Part shown: positions 34,089 through 52,693 of the stretch, piece by piece
How the letters are laid out: every line of letters starts with the position of its first letter
Position numbering within the stretch: the first letter of the stretch is position 1
From: Geitlerinema sp. PCC 9228
GTDB taxonomy: Bacteria; Cyanobacteriota; Cyanobacteriia; Cyanobacteriales; PCC-9228
Reading direction: 5' to 3'
NCBI RefSeq assembly: GCF_001870905.1
Contig: NZ_LNDC01000177.1
Location: 1 to 64,000 of the forward strand
DNA: 64,000 nucleotides
Notes under the pieces: model-generated
Databases searched by the model: none
Seen by the model: the letters and a program-made list of their open reading frames with translations, nothing else
What the model was told of the DNA's origin: nothing
Position numbers and translations under genes: made by a program

Positions 34089-35728
34089 CTTTCATTTCCT
34101 TTAATCCCCGCAAGGGGACTGAAACCCGAATGCATCTCCTTCTCCAAATACATTGTATTTGGAGCTTTCATTTCCTTTAATCCCCGCAAGGGGACTGAAA
34201 CTTAACGTTCACGATTTGCTCGTGTGGCGTTCCTTCTTTCATTTCCTTTAATCCCCGCAAGGGGACTGAAACCCGCCAAAAATTTCGCGTAAGCCTCCTT
34301 GTTGGCGGCTTTCATTTCCTTTAATCCCCGCAAGGGGACTGAAACATTTGATTTCACTTCAAAATCTTCAAGCCAACCCGCGTTGCGCGGGCGCGACTTT
34401 CATTTCCTTTAATCCCCGCAAGGGGACTGAAACGCGAAGCGCGAGGGGATACGGCTTATCTGGATAGAATCTTTCATTTCCTTTAATCCCCGCAAGGGGA
34501 CTGAAACGAACCGAACCACCTGTTCTCGATCCGCGGCTTCCTGCTTTCATTTCCTTTAATCCCCGCAAGGGGACTGAAACACGGATGCGACTGGAGAGCA
34601 TCGCGTTTTTGAGAAAGCTTTCATTTCTCCCCGCAAGGGGACTGAAACACGACGACGGCAGCGATGAAACGCCACCCCCACCCCCTTTCATTTCCTTTAA
34701 TCCCCGCAAGGGGACTGAAACAAAACCTTCTTAACGGAGGACTGTCGAGGGTCTTGACTTTCATTTCCTTTAATCCCCGCAAGGGGACTGAAACAATTAA
34801 TGCATCGTCGTTTCCATACCACATGGCAAAACTTTCATTTCCTTTAATCCCCGCAAGGGGACTGAAACACAGAGGGGCGACCTTTTTTCTATATCATAAT
34901 AGACTTTCATTTCCTTTAATCCCCGCAAGGGGACTGAAACCCTTTCATGGTTTACCTCATTATTTACTCTATTATCTTTCATTTCCTTTAATCCCCGCAA
35001 GGGGACTGAAACAAGCTCGCCAACAATACCAACAGCAACAGCTTTCATTTCCTTTAATCCCCGCAAGGGGACTGAAACGCAACACTGTCCACCAAGTCGC
35101 GCCAGGGAAGGACTTTCATTTCCTTTAATCCCCGCAAGGGGACTGAAACTCTTCTGTAACGTTTTTCCCACTCAAAGTTCCCCGCTTTCATTTCCTTTAA
35201 TCCCCGCAAGGGGACTGAAACATGACAAAACGGTTTCCCCATGCTTTTCCTGACGGTCTTTCATTTCCTTTAATCCCCGCAAGGGGACTGAAACTCGAGT
35301 TTCTGGAAACGAGAAATAGAGCGGGAAAAGCTTTCATTTCCTTTAATCCCCGCAAGGGGACTGAAACCTACCTGACCGCAGGTACCTGGATGTCATGTGG
35401 GAGTACTTTCATTTCCTTTAATCCCCGCAAGGGGACTGAAACTTGTTGGTTCCACCGGTCACTACCTGAACTTTTGCTTTCATTTCCTTTAATCCCCGCA
35501 AGGGGACTGAAACTATTTTCGCTGCTATTGAATAGAACTCAATAGGCTTTCATTTCCTTTAATCCCCGCAAGGGGACTGAAACCACGACTGCCAAAATGG
35601 CAGCCCGCCACCTGGAGAGGCTTTCATTTCCTTTAATCCCCGCAAGGGGACTGAAACTAAAACTACTTGGAATAATTCCTGCATTTTTCTTCTTTCATTT
35701 CCTTTAATCCCCGCAAGGAAACTGAAAT
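34089..35728 (+). CRISPR. CRISPR array 1: 23 repeats, 22 spacers
   Basis: The 37-bp repeat begins CTTTCATTTCCTTTAATC and ends CCCCGCAAGGGGACTGAAAC; CCCC-GCAA-GGGG forms the hairpin and ACTGAAAC would be the 8-base crRNA handle, so transcription is on the plus strand. Repeat 8 (34618-34648) is 31 bp, lacking CTTTAA; the last (35692-35728) is degenerate (AAGGAAACTGAAAT), marking the leader-distal end. Spacers are 29-51 bp, mostly 33-39. Spacer 4 (34346-34396) is 51 bp and spacer 13 (35013-35041) only 29 bp. Several spacers contain perfect internal stems (spacers 1, 4, 18, 20, 21). Confidence 0.98.
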
Positions 35729-35829
35729 AAGAAATTTTTGCCACAGTGTGAGTAATACAATACAATTGCGAATATTGCCTCACTAAAAAAGGCGATCGCG
35801 AAGCAATTTTGATTTCCAAATGACCAACC

Positions 35830-37119: not shown

Positions 37120-37283
37120 GGTATATAGCATTTGTTGATGAAGCCAGCCGTCAAGGCAAGGAGGTTCGTTACCTATCTATCGTTAAGAATTGCGAATGGA
37201 GCGTCCTGAGAATCAGCAAAATCGGTATGGTAAAACCAAGGAGTTGCCAGCCAAGTTGGTCAAAAACATGAGGAACGGCGATT

Positions 37284-39671
37284 ATGTCAAATACGAAATC
37301 AGCCTATAAAGCTGCTTTGGGGGTTTTTCAGCAAGCTGTAAGGACACTTGCCACCTGGTCGGGTACGAATTTGCCTGATGGCTGTGAGGATGTAGCGTCT
37401 TTGGAAGCAATGGAAATAGCCAAAGAACTCCTATCTTGGCAGTCAGAGGCAGACAATATTGGCGCATTACGTCTGCTGTTCGATGGTATAGGTTCCTCCA
37501 ACTCAGAATCGGAATCTATAAAACCTAAGCGTCATTACTGGCAACCGCAAGCAATTGAAACGGTTGGGGAAGAATTCTATCCCCGAATTCCCTATCCTCT
37601 TTCTTATCCTACTGGTAGCGATCCAACGGATATGGATTTTGAAAAACTGAAACAAAAAATTCAGGAACAGATAAGGAATTTAAACAAATATGACTGGCAA
37701 AACTTGGCGTTGCTGACCTTATTTGTCGAAAAATTTGGCTCCTATATTCATTTGGGAGAAGAGGATGTCGCTTTTACCGATATTACCAAATCGACAGCCG
37801 CGATCGCAGCCACCCTTGCTGAAAATCCCGAAGCAGAAAACATTGCTTTGGTAGCTGGCGATTTATCAGGAATTCAGAACTTTATTTATACCATATCATC
37901 CGATGGTGCTTTAAAATCCTTACGCGCACGAAGTTTCTATCTAGAGTTGGTAACAGAGGAAGTGGTACAGCAACTTTTACAAAATCTTGAGTTGCCTCGT
38001 ACCAATGTTGTCTATGCTGGTGGCGGCAATTTATACGTACTCGCGCCAGCTGGTGAAGATACCCAAAGGAAAGTTGCGCAAGTTCGCGAACAAATCAATC
38101 ATTGGTTGTTCGATTGTTTTCAAGGCAAAGTGTTTTTGGCTTTAGACCATCTTGAATTCCATAGAAATAACATTCAAAGCAAAGAATTCTCTGAGTATTG
38201 GTCTGCAGCCACCAAAAAATTAGCCAAACAAAAAGCGCGTAAATTTGAAAACCAACTCCAGACTTTACTTGGCAAGCAAACTACTTACGAACCTTGTCGG
38301 GTTTGCCATCGCGATGACGAACCCAAGTTACATCCCCTCCGTCAAGAACCGGATTCCCCTCTAGCTTGTAAAACTTGTCGTGAAATGTTTGAACTAGGTG
38401 GGGATTTATTAAAGGTCAAGGCAATTGTGCGATCGCACCGAAAAGATATTCGAGGGAGTTGCCATTCTATTCATTTCCAACTACCAGCAACGCCTTCTCT
38501 AAATCAAGAAGATATTTGGTACCATCTTTTTGATAGCGATAAACCGGTGGTTGTTGAATCCGATACTGTTCTGTTGGTAGATAATTGGAACATTGACAAT
38601 TATCAATTTAAACTGTTCAAAAATCCAGTTCCTTTGCTCCTGGGGAACTATGGGAAAGAAAGCGAACAAGAACAAAGCAATTTTATACGTTCTGAAGAAA
38701 TGGTGGAATACGCGGAAGGGATTCCTAGAGTTGGCTATCTGCGTATGGATGTCGATAATTTAGGAACAATTTTTGCGCAAGGATTGGGAGAAGCGCAAAC
38801 TTTACCGCGTTTGACTGGATTATCGCGCCAGATGAGCTATTTCTTTAAGGTCTATCTAAACAGTTTGGCAGCCAATCGTCAGGAGAATATGCCGCCAAAT
38901 GCCAGAAAATTAACGCCTAGTGCCAAGAGAGAAAACCTCCTATTTATTTATGCTGGTGGTGATGATTTGTTTATCAGCGGCAGTTGGAATGAAGTGGTAG
39001 AGTTTGCTTTTGATATCTACCAGAGTTTCCGATCGCATACGGGATACAATCCCAACATCAGTATTTCTGGAGGTATTAGTTTGGCAGAAACAAAATTTCC
39101 CCTCTATCAAGCAGCAGAGGAATCTGGTGACGCAGAAGAGAAAGCAAAAGGAAATGGTCGAGATAGCTTGGGAATGTTCGGTCAAGTGTTCAAATGGGAT
39201 GAGTGGTTGGGAAATCGCGATCGCGTTTTGGATGCTTTCCTACAAAATCTCGAAAACTATTTTTCTCGGGAAGAGTTTCCCCAGGAGGAGGTGCCTATTG
39301 GAATTTTCCCAACCGTTGATATTCTACGGAACCAGTTAGAAATTGGCTATGCTAGAAGTTTCCTCAGAAATTTGCTAGCCACAGCTCAACTGCAAGAAAA
39401 AGCGATTGAGGATTTGGAGGAAAAACAGAAAATATATCCAGAACAGGATAAAGACCTACGCTACTACCTGCATTTGCCAAAGGTTGCTTACACGTTGGCT
39501 AGGTTGCCACAAACCATGCGTGACAATCCAGAGTTTGAAAAGGTCAGAAAGGCGTTGCTCAGTCCTTATAATGCTCCCTATTTTCGCGCGATCGCAACTT
39601 GGTTGGAATTGCTCAATCGTTCCAGCGATACGACAACAGGTAAAGAAAAAGAGGAGGAATTGCGATCGTAA
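37284..39671 (+). CDS. cas10: Cas10/Csm1, type III-A, cyclase-type, HD motif not visible
   Basis: The 795-residue large subunit has two palm domains. Palm 1 shows VAGDLSGIQNFIYTISSDGALKSLRARSFYLELV (~190-225). A zinc-binding pair CRVC...CKTC follows at ~341-372. Palm 2 carries the intact cyclase motif YAGGDDLF (GGDD 558-561), which makes cyclic oligoadenylates from ATP on target RNA binding. The N-terminal region, which should hold an HD nuclease, has no HD pair: the segment that reads DH.KTTAAIA in relatives is here TDITKSTAAIAATL. The system therefore probably lacks Cas10 DNase activity and relies on second messengers. The ATG at 37284 is preceded by GAGGAACGGCG. It heads the csm operon. 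Confidence 0.92.
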   Translation: MSNTKSAYKAALGVFQQAVRTLATWSGTNLPDGCEDVASLEAMEIAKELLSWQSEADNIGALRLLFDGIGSSNSESESIKPKRHYWQPQAIETVGEEFYPRIPYPLSYPTGSDPTDMDFEKLKQKIQEQIRNLNKYDWQNLALLTLFVEKFGSYIHLGEEDVAFTDITKSTAAIAATLAENPEAENIALVAGDLSGIQNFIYTISSDGALKSLRARSFYLELVTEEVVQQLLQNLELPRTNVVYAGGGNLYVLAPAGEDTQRKVAQVREQINHWLFDCFQGKVFLALDHLEFHRNNIQSKEFSEYWSAATKKLAKQKARKFENQLQTLLGKQTTYEPCRVCHRDDEPKLHPLRQEPDSPLACKTCREMFELGGDLLKVKAIVRSHRKDIRGSCHSIHFQLPATPSLNQEDIWYHLFDSDKPVVVESDTVLLVDNWNIDNYQFKLFKNPVPLLLGNYGKESEQEQSNFIRSEEMVEYAEGIPRVGYLRMDVDNLGTIFAQGLGEAQTLPRLTGLSRQMSYFFKVYLNSLAANRQENMPPNARKLTPSAKRENLLFIYAGGDDLFISGSWNEVVEFAFDIYQSFRSHTGYNPNISISGGISLAETKFPLYQAAEESGDAEEKAKGNGRDSLGMFGQVFKWDEWLGNRDRVLDAFLQNLENYFSREEFPQEEVPIGIFPTVDILRNQLEIGYARSFLRNLLATAQLQEKAIEDLEEKQKIYPEQDKDLRYYLHLPKVAYTLARLPQTMRDNPEFEKVRKALLSPYNAPYFRAIATWLELLNRSSDTTTGKEKEEELRS

Positions 39672-39806: not shown

Positions 39807-40283
39807 ATGCCAGAAGAAAATCAACAAAAAACGGAACAAGATTTATGTAAAAGAATCCAGAGTCTTCAAGGCTTAAAAGATTATCCCATTCGGAAGCTAG
39901 TTGAAGATGCAGAAGGATTCGGTCCTTATCTAAAAAGGAAACGTTTGGAGACGAACCAAATTCGCAAGTTTCTTGACGCCATAAACCGCGTCAAAACCAC
40001 ACTATCCCAAATAGATATTGATACAAACAAAACCCAACAGGAAGCAAACACAGACGAACCGAAAAAACTGCCAGAACAGACCAAATTTGACTATGTTGAG
40101 GCAGATATTGTCCTCCTCAAACCCAAATTGGCTTATGCTGCTGCCAGGCAAAGTTCGGCACAGCCTCTAAGTGACGTTATGTCAGTAGCCATTGACAAAG
40201 TTCATAGCGTTCAAGATTTTGAACGTCTCGTACAATTCATCGAAGCCATTATTGCCTATCACAAAGCAGCTGGAGGAAAATAA
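39807..40283 (+). CDS. csm2: Csm2, small subunit of type III-A complex
   Basis: The 158-residue, mostly helical protein sits between cas10 and csm3, as csm2 does in type III-A loci. The C-terminal ~75 residues carry the conserved part (LKPKLAYAAARQSSAQPLSDVMSVAIDKVHSVQDFERLVQFIEAIIAYHKAAGG), typical of Csm2. The N-terminal half is an extension with coiled-coil character and a Lys/Gln-rich linker. Csm2 subunits line the crRNA-target duplex along the Csm3 backbone. It ends two bases before csm3, so the two are translationally linked. Confidence 0.88.
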   Translation: MPEENQQKTEQDLCKRIQSLQGLKDYPIRKLVEDAEGFGPYLKRKRLETNQIRKFLDAINRVKTTLSQIDIDTNKTQQEANTDEPKKLPEQTKFDYVEADIVLLKPKLAYAAARQSSAQPLSDVMSVAIDKVHSVQDFERLVQFIEAIIAYHKAAGGK

Positions 40284-40285
40284 AA

Positions 40286-41239
40286 ATGCCTGCATCTTTC
40301 CAACAAAAACCCTTAAAAGGAAAACTGCGTCTGGTTAGTACGATTCGTGTCGAAACTGGATTGCATATTGGTGGCGGCGGAGAAACATTGGAGATTGGTG
40401 GAATCGATAAGCCAGTTCTTCGCGATCCTCTCACTAAAGAACCCTACCTTGCTGGATCTTCTATCAAAGGCAAGTTGCGTTCAATTTTAGAACGTTTGCT
40501 CAACAAACCTCTCAATCGTCCGGGAGGTTCGGGTACTTATCGTTATGAAAGCGATGATTTAGAGGATGGATATTCCAAGGTTCAAGGACAAAAAATCTGG
40601 TTTCAAGGAGCAAAACACTGTCCGTTAAGTCGTGTTTTTGGTTCGACTGGAAATAATTGCTGGATTGAAACTTCTATAGCCGAGGACCAACAATTATCAT
40701 ACCAGAATACTGAGACGGATGAAAATGGCAAACAATATAGTTTCATCAGAGGCAGAAATGCTCCTGCTCGTTTGCTCGTTCGCGACGCTCATCTAACGCC
40801 AAAATCTGCGGAAGACCTGAAAAAAATTGATACGGGATTGTTCATGACGGAGTGGAAATTTGAAAATGGTTTGGACCGCGTAACGGCGGCTGCCAATCCC
40901 CGTCAGTTGGAACGAGTTCCTAAAGGAACCGAGTTTAATTTTGAACTGGTTTACACCGTAGAAGACCCCAATCAAGTTGAAGAAGATTTGCGCAATATTG
41001 CGATCGCTTTGGCTATTTTAGAAGACGATGCGTTGGGAGGACACGGTTCTCGCGGCTACGGGAAAATTAGTTTCCATAACTTTAAACTGTACTATCGCAG
41101 CATCGAAAAATATAGGGATATTGTAGGAAACGGTGGCAGTTCGTTCGATCCCATTTACCAGAAAGAGAATACACCAGAATTCCTAGAAGATTTTGGTAAT
41201 GTCAACCAACAAATTCGCGGTTCTCTCGATGAACAATAG
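40286..41239 (+). CDS. csm3: Csm3, backbone RAMP and target-RNA nuclease
   Basis: This 317-residue RAMP protein shows GLHIGGGGETLEIGGIDKPVLRDPLTKEPYLAGSSIKGKLRSILERL (25-70). Asp 41 in GGIDKPV corresponds to the catalytic Asp that cuts target RNA every six bases. A glycine-rich loop at the end (DDALGGHGSRGYGKISF, ~250-266) closes the RAMP fold. The protein is longer than many Csm3 because of an insert after residue 80 (GGSGTYRYESDDLEDGYSKVQ) and a 50-residue tail. Spacing of two bases to csm2 and 27 to csm4 shows a single operon. Confidence 0.92.
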   Translation: MPASFQQKPLKGKLRLVSTIRVETGLHIGGGGETLEIGGIDKPVLRDPLTKEPYLAGSSIKGKLRSILERLLNKPLNRPGGSGTYRYESDDLEDGYSKVQGQKIWFQGAKHCPLSRVFGSTGNNCWIETSIAEDQQLSYQNTETDENGKQYSFIRGRNAPARLLVRDAHLTPKSAEDLKKIDTGLFMTEWKFENGLDRVTAAANPRQLERVPKGTEFNFELVYTVEDPNQVEEDLRNIAIALAILEDDALGGHGSRGYGKISFHNFKLYYRSIEKYRDIVGNGGSSFDPIYQKENTPEFLEDFGNVNQQIRGSLDEQ

Positions 41240-41266: not shown

Positions 41267-42394
41267 ATGAGCGTTTGGAGATTGGTCAAACTCAATTTTG
41301 GACGTACTCCCGTCCATTTTGGGGAAGTAGGCATTGGTATTGAGAAAACAGGCGAACGAGTAAAGTCGGATACTTTATTTAGTGCTTGGATAACGGCTTA
41401 TGCTCGTTTGTTTGGCAAGGATGAAGTAGAACATTTATTAACAAGATTTTTAAGTTCGCCACCAGTGCGAATGAGTTCTACATTTGTCTACCGACGATAT
41501 CAAGACACAAACAAAAACTACCAAGATATCTACTACCTTCCCCGTCCTTTGCAATTTCCTCCGAACTATCCTGACGAGGATTTGAGCTTTTTTAAAAGCT
41601 ACAAAAAGTTAAAATATCTTCCTTTGCCTGTATGGCAACGTTGGTATCAAGGGAAAGGTTTTACAGAAAGCGATCGCGAACAATTAGAAACAGAAACCAA
41701 AGGGAAATCCAATGGTTGCTTGTGGCAACAAGGTACTTTTGATTATGGCAAAGCATACCAGTCCCATAAAGTACCACGAATTTCCGTCGATCGCACAACC
41801 CAAGCCACCAATTTGTACCATACTGGTCTCGTACAGTTCCAATGGGAATCCACTGACAATGGAATTCAAAATTTAGCTGGATTGTATTTTCTTTTGGAAT
41901 TTCCCGAAGAAGATAGCCAACTAGAAAGCAATTTGAAAGCTGCACTGCATTTATTGGGAGAAGACGGTCTTGGCGGCGAACGTTCCACAGGTGCCGGACG
42001 TTTTGAGGTAGAATCTTTTGAAGAGTTACCCGAACAATGGCAAAAATTGTTGGAATTTCCTTCAACTAGTTCCTATCGCTGTTTGCTGAGCTTGCTTTGG
42101 GAAAACGAGGCTTCAAAACTAACTGCATTAATGAATGGCGGCGAGAATATTGGTTACGAAATTCTCGAACGCGGTGGCTGGGTTTTTTCACCATTTTCCG
42201 GTCGTCAATCTCGTCGCCAGATGGTGAGGATGTTTGCAGAGGGATCGGTATTTGCCGGTGTTCCTGAAGGTACGTTGGCTGATGTTACGCCACCGAGTTT
42301 CCAAGCTCATTCTATTTATCGCAATGGCATTGGTCTCAGTCTTCCCATTCAAGTGAAAACAGCAAGCAAAGACAATACCAAGGAGGCTTCGTAA
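41267..42394 (+). CDS. csm4: Csm4, RAMP binding the crRNA 5' handle
   Basis: This 375-residue protein has a Csm4-type start (VWRLVKLNFGRTPVHFGEVGIGIEKTGERVKSDTLFSAWITAYARLFG) and the mid-protein glycine-rich RAMP loop LLGEDGLGGERSTGAGRFEVE (~231-251). Csm4 anchors the 8-base crRNA handle and contacts Cas10. The C-terminal third (SSYRCLLSLLWENEASKLTALMNGGENIGYEILERGGWVFSPFSGRQSRRQMVRMFAEGS) is the second ferredoxin-like part. The stop overlaps the csm5 start (ATG at 42394 within TAATGG). All usual features are present. Confidence 0.9.
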   Translation: MSVWRLVKLNFGRTPVHFGEVGIGIEKTGERVKSDTLFSAWITAYARLFGKDEVEHLLTRFLSSPPVRMSSTFVYRRYQDTNKNYQDIYYLPRPLQFPPNYPDEDLSFFKSYKKLKYLPLPVWQRWYQGKGFTESDREQLETETKGKSNGCLWQQGTFDYGKAYQSHKVPRISVDRTTQATNLYHTGLVQFQWESTDNGIQNLAGLYFLLEFPEEDSQLESNLKAALHLLGEDGLGGERSTGAGRFEVESFEELPEQWQKLLEFPSTSSYRCLLSLLWENEASKLTALMNGGENIGYEILERGGWVFSPFSGRQSRRQMVRMFAEGSVFAGVPEGTLADVTPPSFQAHSIYRNGIGLSLPIQVKTASKDNTKEAS

Positions 42395-43686
42395 TGGTAG
42401 CGACCTCAGATAAAGCAATTCCCAAACCAAATTTTTACGATACCAAACGTATTCGGCTAACCAGTCCTCTATTGCATATTGGTTCCGAACTTCAAAGTTT
42501 AAATCCTTTTGAATACGTCGCCACCAGCGATCGCGTTTTTTATCCCAACTCAGAAGCGTTGGCAAGAGCTTTGTACAAACGGGGAGCTCTTCCAGATTAT
42601 ATCGCTAGAATTGAAGCAAGAGAATCTATTATTTCGCTGCTGGAAGATGTATTTGGCGATGAGTGGCAACGGGAAAAAGACGATCGCGGCAATCCGCTTT
42701 TTCCCAAGCATCGCATTTGTCGCAAATGGACCAATAATAGCATCACCGATTTGCGTCCAGCTATCAGAAACGGTATGGGACAATTATATATTCCCGGTTC
42801 TTCGATTAAAGGAGCTATTCGTACCGCGATCGCATATTATCTCCTAAAACACGAAGACACATATCGACTTCCCGAAGAAAAGCGTACGAGTCATATTGAA
42901 CAGCAGTTAAGAGAACGGATCGGAGGTGGTTCGCTCAAAAAAACAGCCAAGTTTGCCGATGATGAACTATTCATGGACGATATCTTTGCTAATTTTCAAC
43001 TAAGTTATCAAGGAAAGCAAGCAAAAACCAAAAATAAACCCAGTCCCAATACAGATTTCATGCGAGCTGTTCAAGTCACCGATTCGCAACCTATAGAGTT
43101 TACTGTTATCAAAAGAAGAGATAAGAAAATTCCGTACAATATTCCAGCAATTGCTGAAGTTATTGTTTCCAGCAGATTTCCCAACGGAAAAGCCAAATAT
43201 AGAGCTTCTTTATATGTAGAAATTATCCATAACATTCGTACGGAGTTTTCCATTAGCGTAGATACAGACATGCTCAAGTGGTTTAAACACCGACAAGGCA
43301 TGAAACTACCCTTCCAAAACACGCAGGATTTGCTGAATATTTGTCAGGAATTTGCTCAAGAACAGTGGGAAGCCGAACGAATTTACTGGCAAAACATCTC
43401 TAGTAATCCCAATGCTGGCGATCGCAATTTAGATTTTAGTTTAATTAAAGAGAGAGTTTATCAACAAGAAGCGTGTCCCTATTCTTTACGCCTTGGCTGG
43501 GGAAGTGGTTTGTTGGGAACGACTGTGGGATTGTGTTTGGATGAAGAACTTGTCGAGAAAATTCGCGATGCCTGTGGTATTGCAGCTCCTCAATTTGAAG
43601 CTCCCAAATCTCGGCGTACTGTCGTAAATTCAAAGGGAGAAATTCGCTATGTTCCCGGTTGGACTAACTTAAAAATATTGGAATAA
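42394..43686 (+). CDS. csm5: Csm5, RAMP capping the crRNA 3' end
   Basis: The 430-residue protein shows the Csm5-type N-terminus IRLTSPLLHIGSELQSLNPFEYV (16-38) and the RAMP helix YIPGSSIKGAIRTAIAYYLL (~130-149). The C-terminal glycine-rich loop is LRLGWGSGLLGTTVGLCL (~369-386). Csm5 sits at the 3' end of the crRNA and recruits nucleases that trim it. Its start overlaps the csm4 stop by one base and it ends three bases before cas6, consistent with one polycistronic message. No truncation or frameshift is seen. Confidence 0.9.
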   Translation: MVATSDKAIPKPNFYDTKRIRLTSPLLHIGSELQSLNPFEYVATSDRVFYPNSEALARALYKRGALPDYIARIEARESIISLLEDVFGDEWQREKDDRGNPLFPKHRICRKWTNNSITDLRPAIRNGMGQLYIPGSSIKGAIRTAIAYYLLKHEDTYRLPEEKRTSHIEQQLRERIGGGSLKKTAKFADDELFMDDIFANFQLSYQGKQAKTKNKPSPNTDFMRAVQVTDSQPIEFTVIKRRDKKIPYNIPAIAEVIVSSRFPNGKAKYRASLYVEIIHNIRTEFSISVDTDMLKWFKHRQGMKLPFQNTQDLLNICQEFAQEQWEAERIYWQNISSNPNAGDRNLDFSLIKERVYQQEACPYSLRLGWGSGLLGTTVGLCLDEELVEKIRDACGIAAPQFEAPKSRRTVVNSKGEIRYVPGWTNLKILE

Positions 43687-43688
43687 TT

Positions 43689-44483
43689 ATGTTAATTGAG
43701 TCTAAATGGCAAATTGCTGTATCGGAAGCAACGACCATTCCTCGTTCCTATCGCATTGCTTTGGCGAAAGAACTACACCAACGCCTGGGATGGGAAATGG
43801 GAGGCAACGATATTCCCCCAATCACGTCATCGGGAATTATTGGGGTTTGTTCCACGTCCAAAGAATACGTGACGTTTCATCCAGAAGAATGCTATACCCT
43901 CTATTTGTGTGGGTTAAACGAAGCTGCTGCCAAAGCGATCGCATCTTTAGAATTACCGCCAACATTGGCATTTTTAGGAGGTCAGTTTCACATTCGCGAT
44001 CGCCAAGATACCACGACAACCTACGAACAATTATACACTGCTACTGTCGCTGAAGAACCAGAACCCACCAGACATTTTAACCTGCGTTTTTTATCTCCCA
44101 CCGCTTTCTCCCAAGGCAAAACCCACCTACCGCTACCAGTTCCCACGTTAATGTTTCGCAGTTGGTTGGAACGATGGAATCATTTTGCCTCTATTTACCT
44201 AGGCGGCGACGAACTGATTGCCTATTTACAAGATGCGGTGGTTATCCAAAGACACAATATCCAAACCAGCCGCTTTCAACTTTCAAAGGGATACATTAAC
44301 GGATTTGCCGGAAGCGTTACGTTACGAACTTTCCATCGTGTCGATCCGTTGCTAGCCAACGTAGTTCATTTATTGATTGAATATGGCAGATTTGCTGGTA
44401 CGGGAATTAAGACTCGCTTGGGGATGGGAAAAACAGAGTTGATGTTACCGGAGGCATCTATGGAAGAGAAAACGGTTGCATGA
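43689..44483 (+). CDS. cas6: Cas6 pre-crRNA endoribonuclease
   Basis: The 264-residue RAMP enzyme cuts precursor crRNA within the repeats. The C-terminal half shows the Cas6 arrangement PLPVPTLMFRSWLERWNHFA, GFAGSVTLRTFHRVD and the closing glycine-rich loop GRFAGTGIKTRLGMGKTEL (~236-254). Several histidines (His 28 region, His 57 region) could act as the catalytic base, but no assignment is possible by eye. Both arrays in the window share the CCCC-GCAA-GGGG hairpin and GAAAC end, so one Cas6 could process both. It is the last core gene of the operon. Confidence 0.9.
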   Translation: MLIESKWQIAVSEATTIPRSYRIALAKELHQRLGWEMGGNDIPPITSSGIIGVCSTSKEYVTFHPEECYTLYLCGLNEAAAKAIASLELPPTLAFLGGQFHIRDRQDTTTTYEQLYTATVAEEPEPTRHFNLRFLSPTAFSQGKTHLPLPVPTLMFRSWLERWNHFASIYLGGDELIAYLQDAVVIQRHNIQTSRFQLSKGYINGFAGSVTLRTFHRVDPLLANVVHLLIEYGRFAGTGIKTRLGMGKTELMLPEASMEEKTVA

Positions 44484-44510: not shown

Positions 44511-45131
44511 ATGTCTATTACAGAATTCAAAAGCATTGGTTCCGTCGTTCGGGAATTTCAAATTTTCTATCGGGAAGCTGATTTTGTTGTAGAAGTACCG
44601 TTGGAAGTTCCCCAGCATTTCCGATACGATTTGCAACTGGTTATGCAAGATGGGATTGTGGATAACTCCGAATTGGCGATTTGCGAAAATTTGATTTATC
44701 CAGTTTTGAAGGAAGTTTGGAAAATCTACCGCCACAATTTTTTATTATGGAGCCATCAATTTCTCAATTATAGCGATCGCTTGTCGGGATTTCCAGAATA
44801 TATCCTAGCCAAACGTTCTCCTTTGGGAAAAGTGGTTTTCGATTGTCCTTACTTAATTTTTGTAGAAGCCAAACAGGATAAATTTGATGAAGGCTGGGGG
44901 CAATGTTTGGCAGAAATGGTGGCTGCACAGCGTTTGAACGAACGGGAAGAAATCGCCGTATTTGGTATCGTATCGAATGGGAAGATTTGGCAGTTTGGCA
45001 AAATACGCGATCGCGATTTTACACGCAATATCACTTTTTACTCAATTCAAGATTTGGACAGTTTGTTTGCTTCGGTAAATTATATTTTCCAACAATGCGA
45101 TCGGCAAGTCAACAACCCAACGACTGTTTAA
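44511..45131 (+). CDS. Stand-alone PD-(D/E)XK-like nuclease candidate in the type III locus
   Basis: This 206-residue protein follows cas6 by 27 bases with a clear AAGGAG ribosome site. Its centre has the order GKVVFDCPYLIFVEAKQDKFDEGWGQCLAEMVAAQ: Asp 111, then Glu 119-Ala-Lys 121 on the next strand, and Gln 131 on the following helix, which fits a PD-(D/E)XK active site. It has no CARF or other cyclic-nucleotide sensor domain. Similar proteins without known function occur in cyanobacterial genomes. Its position between cas6 and a CARF gene, in the same direction, suggests an ancillary nuclease of this type III system. Nuclease activity is inferred from the motif only. Confidence 0.65.
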   Translation: MSITEFKSIGSVVREFQIFYREADFVVEVPLEVPQHFRYDLQLVMQDGIVDNSELAICENLIYPVLKEVWKIYRHNFLLWSHQFLNYSDRLSGFPEYILAKRSPLGKVVFDCPYLIFVEAKQDKFDEGWGQCLAEMVAAQRLNEREEIAVFGIVSNGKIWQFGKIRDRDFTRNITFYSIQDLDSLFASVNYIFQQCDRQVNNPTTV

Positions 45132-45160: not shown

Positions 45161-46294
45161 ATGGTTACAACTTTTATTTGTTCCACCGGAACCAGTGCAG
45201 CCAAAATTTTACAAATGAAACCGCCGCAGTTTCAGCAATGGATAGAACAGCAAAACGATGTGGAAGCGGCTGCCGAAGCCTTATTTCAAGAGTTTCGCGA
45301 CCTGGAACCTAGTGGCGAAAATTTACAAAAGAAACTTTCCGCTGAAATCCATTCTCTGGTTCGCATGAAATTGGATTCCCGAGATCGAGTTTTGTTACTA
45401 TCCTCCAGTACGGATGATGGATACTGTTGTGCTTTGGCTGTTGCCAAATACTTGCAACATCATTGGCAAGTTGATGTCACGACAGAAAAAATTCCTGAAT
45501 TGCAGGTAAAAGATGCTGAGGCATTTCGCCGGGAAGGTGTTGTTCGTTTCGTGAAACGGGTCATTACAGAAATTAATAACTACGGTAACGATAATGCGAT
45601 CTTAAATCCCACCGGTGGTTTTAAAGCATTGGTTCCCTATACCGTTCTTATCGGTATGTTGAAAGGCGTTGTTTGTCGGTATATTTTCGAGCAATCTACC
45701 ACCGTTCTAGACTTGCCTCCCTTGCCGGTTGAATTTAAGCGTTCTCAATTTGAAGCTTATCGAGAACTGTTTGAAAAAATCGAGCGAGATACCGATATTT
45801 CCAAATCGGAATGGGAAGCACAAATTCCTTACAATCAAAGAAAATGGTTCGATGCTTTGATTGAGGAAATTGGCGATCGCGTTACTTTATCAGCTATTGG
45901 TTTTTTATTTTTAGATGAAATTAGAAATGCCTCCACGTTTGTTCCCTATTTATCTAAAGTAGCTTTAGATGAATGTTTTAACAATCTCAACCAGCTAGAT
46001 GAGTGCAATCCTATACAGTTTCTCGAACGAGTGTCTCGTTCTCAGGAGGCTTTTCGTCAAGCAGAACATATCAATTTAGGGAATGGCGTACGCTGGTTGA
46101 AACCTGGTAGAACAACAGACCGCTATTTGGTTTCTATTGAAGGTTGGCAATTGTTAGTATGGCGAGCGATTCGTGAAGACGAAATAGGTAAAGATTATCC
46201 CAATCAAATTAAAGTAAATCCCAATCGAGAACGAAGGAGGTATGCTCCATTTGTGCGTATAGATGAGTATTTGGCAGCTCAGATGCTAAAATAA
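45161..46294 (+). CDS. CARF protein of the APE2256 type (TIGR02619-like)
   Basis: This is a 377-residue protein. Residues 1-185 form a CARF domain, with the first ligand loop STGTSAAK (8-15) and the second NPTGGFKALVPY (149-160), as in TIGR02619/APE2256 proteins that bind cyclic tetra-adenylate. Residues ~190-300 are helical, probably a winged-helix region (EEIGDRVTLSAIGFLFLDEIRN). The last ~75 residues are basic and beta-rich (VRWLKPGRTTDRYLVSIEGWQLLVWRAI...RERRRYAPFVRIDEYL) and could be an effector domain, possibly RelE-like as in other CARF mRNA interferases, though this is a guess. A ring nuclease role is the alternative. It follows the nuclease gene by 29 bases. Confidence 0.8.
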   Translation: MVTTFICSTGTSAAKILQMKPPQFQQWIEQQNDVEAAAEALFQEFRDLEPSGENLQKKLSAEIHSLVRMKLDSRDRVLLLSSSTDDGYCCALAVAKYLQHHWQVDVTTEKIPELQVKDAEAFRREGVVRFVKRVITEINNYGNDNAILNPTGGFKALVPYTVLIGMLKGVVCRYIFEQSTTVLDLPPLPVEFKRSQFEAYRELFEKIERDTDISKSEWEAQIPYNQRKWFDALIEEIGDRVTLSAIGFLFLDEIRNASTFVPYLSKVALDECFNNLNQLDECNPIQFLERVSRSQEAFRQAEHINLGNGVRWLKPGRTTDRYLVSIEGWQLLVWRAIREDEIGKDYPNQIKVNPNRERRRYAPFVRIDEYLAAQMLK

Positions 46295-46319: not shown

Positions 46320-46628
46320 GTGAAAAAGTTTCTATGTCCGTATTTAGAAAGCGAAGTAGAATTACCCCTTGAAAGAGAACAACATATAATAGAGACTCAT
46401 CCCGAGTTGCTGCCAGCGTATGAAAGCGAACTTGCTTTAACTTTGCAGCAACCAGATAAGGTACGATACAGTCGTTTTACTTCCAGTGCACGCTTATTTT
46501 ATCGTTGGTTCGATAGCGTTCGCAACGGCAAATATATCGTTGTTGTCGTAGTAACAGATTCAAGCTTTCTCCAGCGTCATTGGATTGTTACTGCGTATAT
46601 AGCTCGTAAAATCCCAAAAGGAGACTAA
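46320..46628 (+). CDS. Putative toxin-like protein paired with DUF2283
   Basis: The 102-residue protein starts at GTG 46320 and reads FLCPYLESEVELPLEREQHIIETHPELLPAYESELALTLQQPDKVRYS. The segment HI...HPE....ESEL..TL..PD is seen in small proteins that pair with DUF2283 and are suspected nucleases of the barnase/EndoU/colicin/RelE (PBECR) superfamily. It ends three bases before the DUF2283 gene. Toxin activity is inferred from this pairing, not from a visible catalytic site. The gene lies between two CARF genes on the same strand. Confidence 0.65.
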   Translation: MKKFLCPYLESEVELPLEREQHIIETHPELLPAYESELALTLQQPDKVRYSRFTSSARLFYRWFDSVRNGKYIVVVVVTDSSFLQRHWIVTAYIARKIPKGD

Positions 46629-46940: not shown

Positions 46941-48272
46941 ATGTCTAAAATCCTACTTATTACCGTTGGCGGGTCTCCGCAACCCATCATTACCGCAGTT
47001 CAAAGCCTCAACCCCGATCGCGTGGTCTTTGTTTGTTCCGGCGGTTCTAGAGGCAGCGAAACCCAAATTATTGGCGAAGGAAAACCCTGCGAAATTCGTC
47101 AAGGCGCACAAGTGGTCGATCGCTTGCCAAATTTACCGACATATCTGGAATTAGGCGATCGCTTTCAAGCAAATCGCGATTTAATAACCATATCCAACCC
47201 TGACGATCTATCACAAAATTACCGCGCGATCGCAGAAAAAGTACGCGAAATTCGACAGGAACTTCCCCAAGCCAATCTTCTAGCCGACTATACCGGCGGC
47301 ACCAAAACCATGTCGGTGGCATTGGCAATGGTAGCTTTGGATTATGGCGCGAAAGTTCATTTAACCACCAATACCACCCGGGAAAATTTAATTCGCGTAG
47401 AAGCGGGAGAACGGGTCAAAGCCGCTGCTGTATCTTCCGTTACTGTTAATCGGACGGTAGAACAATTTATTCCCCGGGTTCTCCAACAGTATAACTATCC
47501 AGCCGCGATCGCGGAGTTGAAAATTTTGTTACAAAACATGGAACTATCCCAAGAGGATCGACTTCGCATCGAACAACTGTTGGATTGCTGCGAAGGGTTG
47601 GATGCTTGGGATAAATTCGACCACAGAAAAGCGATCGCGTGCTTGCGAAATTATCTCAAAGAACCGGCACTCAAAGACTTAATCTTATTTCTAAAACGGG
47701 TCATGGGAAGCCGTCAAGAATTTGCGGCAGCCATTGGCGATGAATTTGAAACAGCCGATGGCATCAACAGACATGGTTACGAAATTGTGGAAGATATTCT
47801 TCTCAACGCCGAACGCCGCGCTACGTTGGCACGATACGACGATGCCGTAGCTAGATTGTATCGCGCTTTGGAACTTTTGGTGCAAGTTCGTCTTTGGGAA
47901 GGGTATCAAATCCAAACTGGCGATGTGGATGTCACCAAATTGCCAGCATCCCTACAGGAAAAATACGAAGCGGAACGTTCTCCCACCAAGGGAAAAATTC
48001 AACTGGCATTGACCAAAAGTTACGAACTACTTGCCGAGTTACCAGATGACCCCCTCGGCAAAATTTATCTGGAATATAAAGACAAACTTTTGGATATTTT
48101 AACCGCGCGCAACGATTCTATTTTAGCCCATGGTATGCGTCCGGTCACCAAAAATCAGTACCAACAAATTGCTTCGCTGGTAAAAACGTTTGTCACCACC
48201 GGAATTGATGCTGTGGTGGTTGGGAAAAAGAAACACGCGCCGGTACAATTTCCCCTCCAGTTACCTTTTTAA
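46941..48272 (+). CDS. Csm6-like CARF-HEPN ribonuclease (TIGR02710 family)
   Basis: In this 443-residue protein, the N-terminal CARF domain (1-170) has TVGGSPQPI (8-16) and DYTGGTKTMS (116-125). The C-terminal helical half holds a HEPN ribonuclease site R390-x6-H397 (ARNDSILAHG), the RX4-6H pattern of Csm6. In this family cyclic oligoadenylates made by Cas10 bind CARF and activate non-specific RNA cleavage. The central region (~175-290) is helical and TPR-like. The gene is the last of the plus-strand run that begins at cas10 and is followed by a terminator. A separate promoter upstream (gap of 78 bases) is possible. Confidence 0.88.
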   Translation: MSKILLITVGGSPQPIITAVQSLNPDRVVFVCSGGSRGSETQIIGEGKPCEIRQGAQVVDRLPNLPTYLELGDRFQANRDLITISNPDDLSQNYRAIAEKVREIRQELPQANLLADYTGGTKTMSVALAMVALDYGAKVHLTTNTTRENLIRVEAGERVKAAAVSSVTVNRTVEQFIPRVLQQYNYPAAIAELKILLQNMELSQEDRLRIEQLLDCCEGLDAWDKFDHRKAIACLRNYLKEPALKDLILFLKRVMGSRQEFAAAIGDEFETADGINRHGYEIVEDILLNAERRATLARYDDAVARLYRALELLVQVRLWEGYQIQTGDVDVTKLPASLQEKYEAERSPTKGKIQLALTKSYELLAELPDDPLGKIYLEYKDKLLDILTARNDSILAHGMRPVTKNQYQQIASLVKTFVTTGIDAVVVGKKKHAPVQFPLQLPF

Positions 48273-49042: not shown

Positions 49043-50056
49043 ATGACCACTCTCTATCTCACCGAACCGGGAACCACAGTTGGCTATAGCAACCAGGTGT
49101 TAACGGTAAGCCGCAAGGAAAAGACAACTTCCTGTCGTTTGGCTGAAGTTCACCTAGTTGTGGTTTTGCCAGGGATACAACTCAGCCACAGTGCCATTTC
49201 CGCTTTCTTTGACAATGGGATTGAAACCATCTTTCTGCGGCGAGATGGACGATTTCGCGGACGCTTGCAAGGACAGTTTGCCACCAATCCCACGGTGCGG
49301 CTGGCGCAATATCAAAAAGTGAATACAACATTTGGGAGGGCGTTAGCACAAAAATTGGTTTTTGGCAAGGTTTGCAACCAACGAGTTTTGTTGCAGCAGC
49401 GAAATCGCAAAAGTCGCGGTCGTATTAGCCAACTTACAGAAGCCATTGACATTCTCAGCGCTTACCAGCAGCAGCTAAAAGCCAGCGATACGCCTTTACA
49501 GGAAGACGAAATTATGGGAATCGAGGGGATTTGTGCGCGGACCTACTACCAGGCTTTGCGCCATTGGTTTCCTGAAAAATGGGGATTTACAGGACGCAAC
49601 CGCCGTCCTCCCCGCGATCCCATCAATGCTTTGCTCAGTTGGGGATATGGGGTTTTGCTGGCGCGTGTCTTTGCTGCCTGCGTTCAAGGGGGACTCGATC
49701 CGTACTTGGGATTTTTTCACGCGATCGCGCCTTACCGTCCCAATATGGTTTTGGATTTGATGGAGGAGTTTCGTCCGGTTATTGTCGATCGAGCCACCAT
49801 TCGTTTGCTGGAAGCCGATTTACTGACGTGGGAGGATTTTGAGCCTTCTCCAGATGGTGCTGGCATTTGGTTGGGTCAAACCGCCAAAAAACTATTCTTA
49901 GCCCAGTTAGAACAGCAGTTTCAAACCAAATACCGCTATCCACCCCAAAACCAGCGTCGTTTGGCTTTAAATCAAATTTTGCTAGAACAAGCGCGATGGA
50001 TGGGGCGATGTTTGGCATCTTCTGAGTTGGACTATGAGGCGTTTGTGTTGCGATGA
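49043..50056 (+). CDS. cas1: CRISPR integrase Cas1
   Basis: This 337-residue Cas1 integrates new spacers together with Cas2. Metal-binding residues are visible: Glu 161 in IMGIEGICARTYY, His 226 in LGFFHAIAPYRP and Asp 238/Glu 241 in LDLMEEFRPVIVD. The N-terminal beta domain starts MTTLYLTEPGTTVGYSNQVL. There is no fused reverse transcriptase or Cas6 domain, so RNA spacer capture through an RT-Cas1 is not supported. It overlaps cas2 (ATGA, 4 bases) and the pair leads directly into CRISPR array 2. Confidence 0.95.
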   Translation: MTTLYLTEPGTTVGYSNQVLTVSRKEKTTSCRLAEVHLVVVLPGIQLSHSAISAFFDNGIETIFLRRDGRFRGRLQGQFATNPTVRLAQYQKVNTTFGRALAQKLVFGKVCNQRVLLQQRNRKSRGRISQLTEAIDILSAYQQQLKASDTPLQEDEIMGIEGICARTYYQALRHWFPEKWGFTGRNRRPPRDPINALLSWGYGVLLARVFAACVQGGLDPYLGFFHAIAPYRPNMVLDLMEEFRPVIVDRATIRLLEADLLTWEDFEPSPDGAGIWLGQTAKKLFLAQLEQQFQTKYRYPPQNQRRLALNQILLEQARWMGRCLASSELDYEAFVLR

Positions 50057-50334
50057 CAAATTTATGGTTGGTTTGCTACGACATCCGCGATGACAAGCGA
50101 CGGCAGCGGTTGGCAAAGCTAATGGAACAGCGATGCCAGCGGGTACAGTATTCGGTTTTTGAATGTCCTGTGGACGCGCCGACGCTGGATAAATTGTTGT
50201 CTCGGTGGTTGAAGGTGTTGAAGTTGCCGGAAGATAGTTTGCGCGTTTATCCGTTGGATGCGAAGGCGAAAGCGCAAGCGCGGGTATACGGAAGTCCACC
50301 TCCCTACGAACCACCTGATTATTTAATTTTGTAA
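50053..50334 (+). CDS. cas2: CRISPR integrase subunit Cas2
   Basis: This 93-residue Cas2 has the ferredoxin-like pattern: MTNLWLVCYDIRDDKRRQRLAKLM at the start with the conserved Asp 10, RVQYSVFECPVDAPTLDKLL in the middle and SLRVYPLDAKA near the end. Cas2 dimers bridge two Cas1 dimers during spacer integration. Its ATG lies inside the last codons of cas1. A terminator hairpin follows 46 bases after the stop. Confidence 0.95.
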   Translation: MTNLWLVCYDIRDDKRRQRLAKLMEQRCQRVQYSVFECPVDAPTLDKLLSRWLKVLKLPEDSLRVYPLDAKAKAQARVYGSPPPYEPPDYLIL

Positions 50335-50665: not shown

Positions 50666-52437
50666 GTCATTTCCTATCTATTCCCCGCAAGGGGACGGAA
50701 ACAAGATGAGGAGTTATTTTTTGGAACACTTCCTCTTCCTCTGTCATTTCCTATCTATTCCCCGCAAGGGGACGGAAACTACATTTTTCTGGGATCTTCG
50801 GAAAAATCCGTGGAAGTCATTTCCTATCTATTCCCCGCAAGGGGACGGAAACACAAATTTTTTCTTGATTTTCTATTGAAATCTGATGAAGTCATTTCCT
50901 ATCTATTCCCCGCAAGGGGACGGAAACTTTCGTCCTCATCTTCTGCTTTAAACAGGTCATCTGTCATTTCCTATCTATTCCCCGCAAGGGGACGGAAACT
51001 ATTCATCTCAGTCTCCAATAATATAAATAAAAAGAAGGGTCATTTCCTATCTATTCCCCGCAAGGGGACGGAAACTTGGGTTTTGTTAGAATCAGAACGA
51101 CTCAAAGCGTCATTTCCTATCTATTCCCCGCAAGGGGACGGAAACTCGGCTTCTGATACCTCTACCTCCTGCTTTGGATGTTTGTCATTTCCTATCTATT
51201 CCCCGCAAGGGGACGGAAACTTACCTACCATGAATCCGTCTACATTTAAAGCGATGTTTTTTGTCATTTCCTATCTATTCCCCGCAAGGGGACGGAAACG
51301 GCATCACTCCCCTTAAGGAGTAAGTAATACCATTCGTCATTTCCTATCTATTCCCCGCAAGGGGACGGAAACTCTTGCTTGCTGTAAAAGCCCGTTGCAA
51401 GCTTGTCATTTCCTATCTATTCCCCGCAAGGGGACGGAAACCGCTCTTTTCTTATTTGGAAGAACGATCTTAAAATCTCCTTTTTGGAGTCATTTCCTAT
51501 CTATTCCCCGCAAGGGGACGGAAACGCTTCTTCACTGCGAACGGAAAAAGAATAAGTCGTTGTCATTTCCTATCTATTCCCCGCAAGGGGACGGAAACGG
51601 CTCAAACCCAATCGATGTGAAAGATGTTTTCCTTTTTTGGTCATTTCCTATCTATTCCCCGCAAGGGGACGGAAACATTTTCGTAGGCTATGTTGACTAA
51701 ATCCAAGCATTTTGTCATTTCCTATCTATTCCCCGCAAGGGGACGGAAACCACCTTTCGCCTGGCCCACGGCCTGGATCGGCTATCACTGGTCATTTCCT
51801 ATCTATTCCCCGCAAGGGGACGGAAACTTGCAAAGGGGGATGATTCCCCACTTGACTCCCCCGTATGAGGTGAGTCATTTCCTATCTATTCCCCGCAAGG
51901 GGACGGAAACCCGATCACAAGCGGCGCAAACCGCTTCTTGCCCTTTTGCTGTCATTTCCTATCTATTCCCCGCAAGGGGACGGAAACGAAACCCGGTCAC
52001 TCGCGTCTTTCAGGTCGATTGTACTGAAGTCATTTCCTATCTATTCCCCGCAAGGGGACGGAAACGGCGCCACTCTCGTAAGCGGTGATTCCCTGTGTTA
52101 ATGTCATTTCCTATCTATTCCCCGCAAGGGGACGGAAACCGTTGTGTTCGGGGAGTGCATCGACCTCAGTAAATGTCATTTCCTATCTATTCCCCGCAAG
52201 GGGACGGAAACAGAAGGTAACCTTTGAATGGACGAAGGAGCCCCTTCCAGTGTCATTTCCTATCTATTCCCCGCAAGGGGACGGAAACGACAATCACAGT
52301 TTCCGCATATGGAATATGTTTGAAATCAGTCATTTCCTATCTATTCCCCGCAAGGGGACGGAAACATAAAACGTGCCTCCATGGACAACAAACAAAGAAC
52401 GTCATTTCCTATCTATTCCCCGCAAGGGGACGGAAAC
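50666..52437 (+). CRISPR. CRISPR array 2: 24 repeats, 23 spacers
   Basis: The 37-bp repeat begins GTCATTTCCTATCTATTC and ends CCCCGCAAGGGGACGGAAAC. All 24 copies appear identical by eye. Spacers are 32-47 bp, mostly 33-42. It shares the CCCC-GCAA-GGGG hairpin and GAAAC end with array 1, with ACGGAAAC as the probable crRNA handle. Leader, promoter and cas1-cas2 lie on its left side. Uniform repeats and the adjacent adaptation genes suggest this is the array now acquiring spacers. Confidence 0.98.
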
Positions 52438-52693
52438 TCTGAATTTTTGGGTCGTAGACTGGGAAAAACTCTTCGTCAAAAGAAACATCGATCGCGACAT
52501 AGCCACCCTTGGTATCAACCACCTTTCCATCAAACCGTCTAGGAACCTCTACAAAAAACCCCTCGCAAATACAATTCTTGTAGAACTTCCCTGCATGGCA
52601 TTTCCATAACTGGCAAAATTGGATAAGCAGACTAGAACGAGAAATGTCACCAAATACCGATACTTGGGTATACTTTTCCTCGGAACCAGACAT
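52409..52693 (-). CDS. Small hypothetical gene ending inside the last repeat of array 2
   Basis: The 94-residue frame starts at ATG 52693 with GAAGGAG upstream and reads MSGSEEKYTQVSVFGDISRS...WKCHAGKFYKNCICEGFFVEVPRRFDGKVVDTKGGYVAIDVSFDEEFFPVYDPKIQ. The protein-like part stops at ~52438; the last ~10 codons are CRISPR repeat sequence in reverse (SFRPLAGNR). It was probably cut by the array edge or reads through it. Three cysteines and a beta-rich pattern are visible but no known family. It is transcribed against the array. Confidence 0.5.
   Translation of the reverse strand: MSGSEEKYTQVSVFGDISRSSLLIQFCQLWKCHAGKFYKNCICEGFFVEVPRRFDGKVVDTKGGYVAIDVSFDEEFFPVYDPKIQSFRPLAGNR

Follow-up and report, generated by a model that had tools for sequence, protein, structure and literature searches.

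A stand-alone PD-(D/E)XK-like protein recurrently linked to cyanobacterial type III CRISPR operons

A 206-codon gene in a type III-A operon

The window (the whole stretch of 64,000 nucleotides analyzed here) lies on contig C177 of a 4.8 Mb cyanobacterial genome. As shown in Table 1, it holds an operon that, going by its sequence, is a type III-A system. Its genes are ordered cas10/csm1, csm2, csm3, csm4, csm5, cas6, the gene studied here, a CARF7 RelE-like gene, a 102-aa gene, a Csx1-type CARF-HEPN gene, cas1, and cas2, and CRISPR arrays flank the operon on both sides. The 206 codons of the studied gene begin with ATG behind an AAGGAG-like ribosome site, and the gap to the preceding cas6 stop is 27 nt. 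A preliminary description of this DNA had placed the gene between cas6 and a CARF gene 29 bases downstream, and profile searches confirmed both neighbors; the spacing also holds. Comparison with related sequences indicates that it is a real gene: a chance ORF is ruled out because homologues at 60-74% identity keep open frames. The protein had also been described as lacking a CARF domain of its own, and none was found in Pfam, NCBIfam, or PADLOC scans.

The 102-aa ORF between the two CARF genes (46320-46628) had no match in Pfam, NCBIfam, or PADLOC. A single partial match to the array-2 repeat occurs upstream of cas10 (37158-37180), far from the array.

Table 1. Features of the type III-A operon and codons of the predicted active site, in window coordinates
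Feature	Position	Strand	Basis
CRISPR array 1	34096..35733	.	
cas10/csm1, 795 aa, GGDD cyclase motif, no HD motif	37284..39671	+	TIGR02578 3e-168
csm2 (cas11)	39807..40283	+	PF03750 3.6e-30
csm3 (cas7)	40286..41239	+	TIGR02582 2.8e-63
csm4 (cas5)	41267..42394	+	TIGR01903 2e-92
csm5 (cas7)	42394..43686	+	TIGR01899 6e-23
cas6	43689..44483	+	PF10040 8e-18
Stand-alone PD-(D/E)XK-like protein, 206 aa, PADLOC PD_DExK	44511..45131	+	PDLC01472 E=1e-45, residues 53-198
Glu96 codon, counterpart of the PD-motif Asp (Pro95-Glu96)	44796..44798	+	Alignment: Asp in outgroup, Glu in 57/57 type III-linked copies
Glu119-Ala-Lys121, (D/E)XK motif, end of strand beta3	44865..44873	+	E119, K121 invariant in linked copies
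Gln131 codon, helix after (D/E)XK strand	44901..44903	+	Invariant in linked copies
CARF7 RelE-like effector	45161..46294	+	PDLC01939 1.3e-172
Csx1/Csm6-type CARF-HEPN effector	46941..48272	+	TIGR02710 5e-69
cas1	49043..50056	+	PF01867 1.6e-80
cas2	50053..50334	+	PF09827 1.1e-21
CRISPR array 2	50673..52450	.	

Family, predicted fold, and putative active site

Genes of this type are already catalogued in PADLOC, whose CRISPR-associated model PDLC01472 ('PD_DExK') matched the protein with 153 bits. The model covers only the core, assigns no function, and also matched 11/11 members of a diverse family alignment; as these included solo copies outside CRISPR loci, it is not specific to CRISPR-linked ones. 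Profile searches of Pfam, NCBIfam, and PHROG for a named family returned nothing significant, and PDB profile searches found no chain at E ≤ 1 (profile A1) and three unrelated chains at E ≤ 10 (A3). Homologues at 1e-6 or better were present in 86 of 386 cyanobacterial genomes, many of which had several copies. No relative was confirmed in IMG/VR viral contigs or phage records. Two close relatives came from plasmid records, and one of these lies in a CRISPR region alongside crn3, cas3, cas6, cas4, and cas1. We found no description of the gene's function in the open-access literature, subscription papers being outside the reach of the search.

An AlphaFold2 model built from 56 aligned sequences (mean pLDDT 85, pTM 0.86) contained a helix (56-73), three strands (77-81, 96-101, and 111-119), a second helix (125-143), and a further strand (150-155). 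Judged by the order of its elements, the predicted core is alpha-beta-beta-beta-alpha-beta, as in PD-(D/E)XK nucleases. The residues follow the layout of this class, in which the acid of the PD motif precedes a (D/E)XK motif closing the next strand: Pro95-Glu96 stands 23 residues ahead of Glu119, Glu119-Ala-Lys121 ends the strand 111-119, and Gln131 lies in the helix that follows. In the family alignment, Glu96, Glu119, Lys121, and Gln131 were invariant in all 57 type III-linked copies. Outgroup relatives carry Gly-x-Pro-Asp at positions 93-96, which is the PD motif, and the CRISPR-rich subfamily has Pro-Glu there.

The preliminary description had proposed Asp111, Glu119-Ala-Lys121, and Gln131 as residues spaced like those of PD-(D/E)XK nucleases. 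The latter two were borne out, but Asp111 is probably not the first catalytic acid. Some relatives have Glu, Gly, Gln, Ala, or Ser at position 111, which lies at the opposite end of strand beta3 from Glu119, eight residues away. From the alignment, the acid corresponding to the PD motif is probably Glu96.

A search of solved structures with Foldseek gave no match below 0.001. The type IIG enzyme BpuSI appeared as a weak match at rank 22 (E 0.12, prob 0.84, TM 0.42), and the best matches among viral models were DUF5898 proteins of pandoraviruses, which were uninformative. Of the structure prediction and Foldseek search suggested at the outset, the former gave a nuclease-type core and the latter no significant match to a solved nuclease. 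The putative assignment as a nuclease draws on the fold topology, the conserved motifs, and the PADLOC model rather than on a strong structural match.

Recurrent linkage to type III loci

We defined close relatives as those scoring above 290 bits, the merged set comprising 151 different proteins. The preliminary description had named homologues lying mostly far from CRISPR loci as evidence against its reading. This is true of the wider family, which is mostly solo and shows only a few type III remnants below 290 bits, but 57 of the 100 cyanobacterial relatives above that score lie inside type III loci. Two or more type III core genes lie within 5 kb of the gene in 40 of the 80 nearest named relatives. 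Solo genes with no conserved neighbors make up approximately one third of the closest relatives, and no common partner gene was seen for solo copies.

The main context is a III-D operon of the order cas10-cas7-csx10-cas11-CARF or csx1-cas7-[gene]-cas7-csx19-cas7, and in 32 of 41 loci no more than 30 nt separate the gene from the cas7 upstream of it. Positions in III-A operons vary, including cas6-[gene]-CARF in the window, csm4-[gene]-csm5 (L056), cas6-csx1-[gene] (L052), and cas10-[gene]-csm2 (L186). In three III-Dv-like loci (L114, L133, and L191) the gene lies downstream of fused cas7 genes. Upstream of the relative nearest by identity to the window copy (74%, L113) are a cas6 remnant and a csx1 gene of the CARF-HEPN kind. 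Linkage therefore recurs across the III-D, III-A, and III-Dv contexts, and together with fold topology and residue conservation it backs the original proposal of a stand-alone PD-(D/E)XK protein linked to type III systems. Nonetheless, the gene is dispensable, because in a phylum sample scored by coordinates the operon included it at only 12 of the 26 III-D loci with full-length csx10 and at 3 of the 22 III-A loci with csm4.

The gene is present more than once, often as tandem copies, in five type III loci (L135, L133, L157, L170, and L058). Distant relatives (26-29% identity) occur between cas11 and cas7 of two further III-D operons (L221 7566-8180 and L222 7406-8050), in the spot where other III-D operons have their CARF gene.

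NucC is a cA3-activated, CARF-less restriction-like nuclease of the PD-(D/E)XK fold that is used by type III systems. The studied protein is like NucC in being stand-alone, in its fold class, and in its type III setting, but no PDB chain, that of NucC included, was matched by profile, and its PADLOC matches contained no NucC model. Can1 (PMC6981274) and Can2/Card1 (PMC7969007) combine CARF with a PD-(D/E)XK-like domain and share the fold class and type III setting, whereas the studied protein has no fused CARF and did not match the CARF_PDDEXK models of PADLOC. The earlier statement that known type III nucleases of this fold have their own CARF domain is a true contrast for Can1 and Can2/Card1, but it overlooks NucC. 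One operon with a stand-alone copy also holds a Can2/Card1-like CARF-PDDEXK effector gene (L047 7574-8740).

Uma2 (PF05685), an abundant cyanobacterial family of putative restriction endonucleases, is a different sequence family without a match to the studied protein. Uma2 genes fill the III-D slot of the studied gene in two loci (L218 5948-6580 and L219 8307-8924) and occur elsewhere in type III operons; III-D and III-A examples include L049 11321-11887, L198 5410-6000, and L056 6521-7084. It appears as if several nuclease families could fill one role in type III operons. Solo-Cas4/CAS-Cas4 (PMC5704561) is likewise a PD-(D/E)XK gene found both inside CRISPR loci and solo, but Cas4 belongs to the adaptation module while the studied gene sits among effector genes.

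Selection, Cas10, and possible roles

Across 33 linked III-D operons the gene had a median pairwise dN/dS of 0.106, as compared with 0.17-0.22 for the cas7, cas11, csx10, and cas10 genes alongside it; solo copies gave 0.22. The pairs are non-independent and the values descriptive. Linked copies clustered on a tree, yet it required 25 changes between linked and solo states versus 46 in shuffles. This was a quick tree on which the long branch of the window copy makes its exact position unsure, and it is consistent with the gene moving in and out of type III loci. Such switching, along with the multiple copies per genome and many solo copies in unrelated places, is what would be expected of a mobile family of single genes inserting at many sites, CRISPR operons included, and having no role there. 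The preliminary description had offered this passenger status as an option. We consider a mere passenger unlikely and give it little weight because the linked copies are under strong constraint (dN/dS 0.11), more so than neighboring cas genes or solo copies. The fixed slot and short spacing across many species also disfavor it, as does the occupation of several type III positions when such an operon would make up only ~0.2% of a genome.

Instead, we favor with reasonable though incomplete confidence a nuclease of the PD-(D/E)XK fold that stands alone, is probably metal-dependent, and was drawn repeatedly, as a single gene, from a large cyanobacterial family into III-D, III-A, and III-Dv operons. 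Very probably it is a genuine accessory protein under selection, of a kind that a defense-gene database already lists. The observations behind this reading are a real gene, the predicted core topology, the conserved set of Glu96, Glu119, Lys121, and Gln131, the fixed III-D slot, several independent contexts, and purifying selection. Against it stand the replacement of the PD-motif Asp by Glu in the window protein, the absence of any Pfam family, PDB relative by profile, or significant Foldseek nuclease, and the dispensability of the gene with its many solo close relatives. Under the recruited-nuclease reading, the protein would be made together with the effector complex, would cleave nucleic acid, and may work as an accessory nuclease beside a Cas10 that lacks HD and is competent as a cyclase. 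Its substrate would more likely be DNA, because these systems already have RNases in their Cas7 subunits and CARF effectors. The trigger seems slightly more likely to be recruitment by the effector complex than activation by the neighboring CARF protein.

The Cas10 of the window operon had been described as lacking HD, and this was upheld: it matched TIGR02578 from profile position 93 onward only and had no HD motif near its N-terminus. Published figures put HD in 65% of III-A and 3% of III-D loci (Hoikkala et al. 2024, PMC11229360). None of the examined Cas10s from linked III-A or III-D loci had an HDxxK-like motif, although one has an isolated 'HDPF' at residue 39, and the intact ones retain GGDD. 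HD was equally missing from III-A and III-D Cas10s without the studied gene nearby (0/24), some from genomes without a family match, while a positive control recovered an LLHD motif at the expected place in 3 of 6 long Cas10s. The examined III-A and III-D Cas10s thus showed no variation, and we dropped HD covariation as support for substitution. All cyanobacterial III-A Cas10s examined (L193-L197, L223-L229, L231, and L232) were without the HD motif, in contrast to the 65% for III-A overall (PMC11229360).

These results bear on a sharper form of the recruited-nuclease reading, wherein the protein would join the effector complex as a DNase subunit and destroy the invader's DNA after target RNA binding. 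The rarity of HD in III-D loci, its absence from the linked Cas10s, and the interleaving of the gene with those of complex subunits (cas7-[gene]-cas7 and csm4-[gene]-csm5) favor such a substitute. However, the suggestion that the protein replaces the missing HD gains no compensation signal, as HD is absent with or without the gene, and we regard this form as possible but tentative. We find it rather doubtful that the protein is switched on in trans by the CARF protein encoded beside it, or by cyclic oligoadenylate itself following NucC-like logic. Of 38 complete linked III-D operons, 31 had a detected CARF or csx1 gene, the window has a CARF gene directly adjacent, and the Cas10 cyclase motif is retained. 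Yet trans activation predicts adjacency, and conserved adjacency lends the original suggestion no support, since in III-D a cas7 stands between the gene and the CARF gene (its flanks are two cas7 genes) and the CARF slot is empty in 5 of 38 complete operons. Moreover, the linked operon L047 has its own CARF-PDDEXK effector, and the protein had no sequence link to any PADLOC model besides PD_DExK or to any PDB chain. We consider it highly improbable that the protein is a crRNA-processing factor, such as a 3'-trimming nuclease, expressed with cas6. The gene directly follows cas6 in the window and is near cas6 in L113 and L130, but most linked loci have it away from cas6, and many III-D and III-A loci that lack it are intact in all other respects.

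Being without HD, the majority of III-D systems and the III-A systems observed here in cyanobacteria are thought to act mainly via cyclic nucleotide signaling. As a quite tentative proposal, a separate, exchangeable protein encoded among the cas7 genes might supply the missing DNA-cutting arm of these HD-less, cyclase-competent cyanobacterial complexes, with the studied family, its distant relatives, or Uma2-type proteins as candidates. If a separate nuclease does work with the complex, the signaling-centered view of HD-less type III systems would need revision. Such a role is directly testable given a 206-aa protein found in many culturable cyanobacteria. With this analysis, what had been an unnamed profile in a database becomes a defined component, strongly conserved and with a predicted active site.

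The genome of the window also encodes a second Cas10 of 628 aa without an HD motif (contig C19, locus L212). It adjoins csx10-like and fused cas7-like genes, with the studied gene not nearby, and this locus is probably III-Dv.
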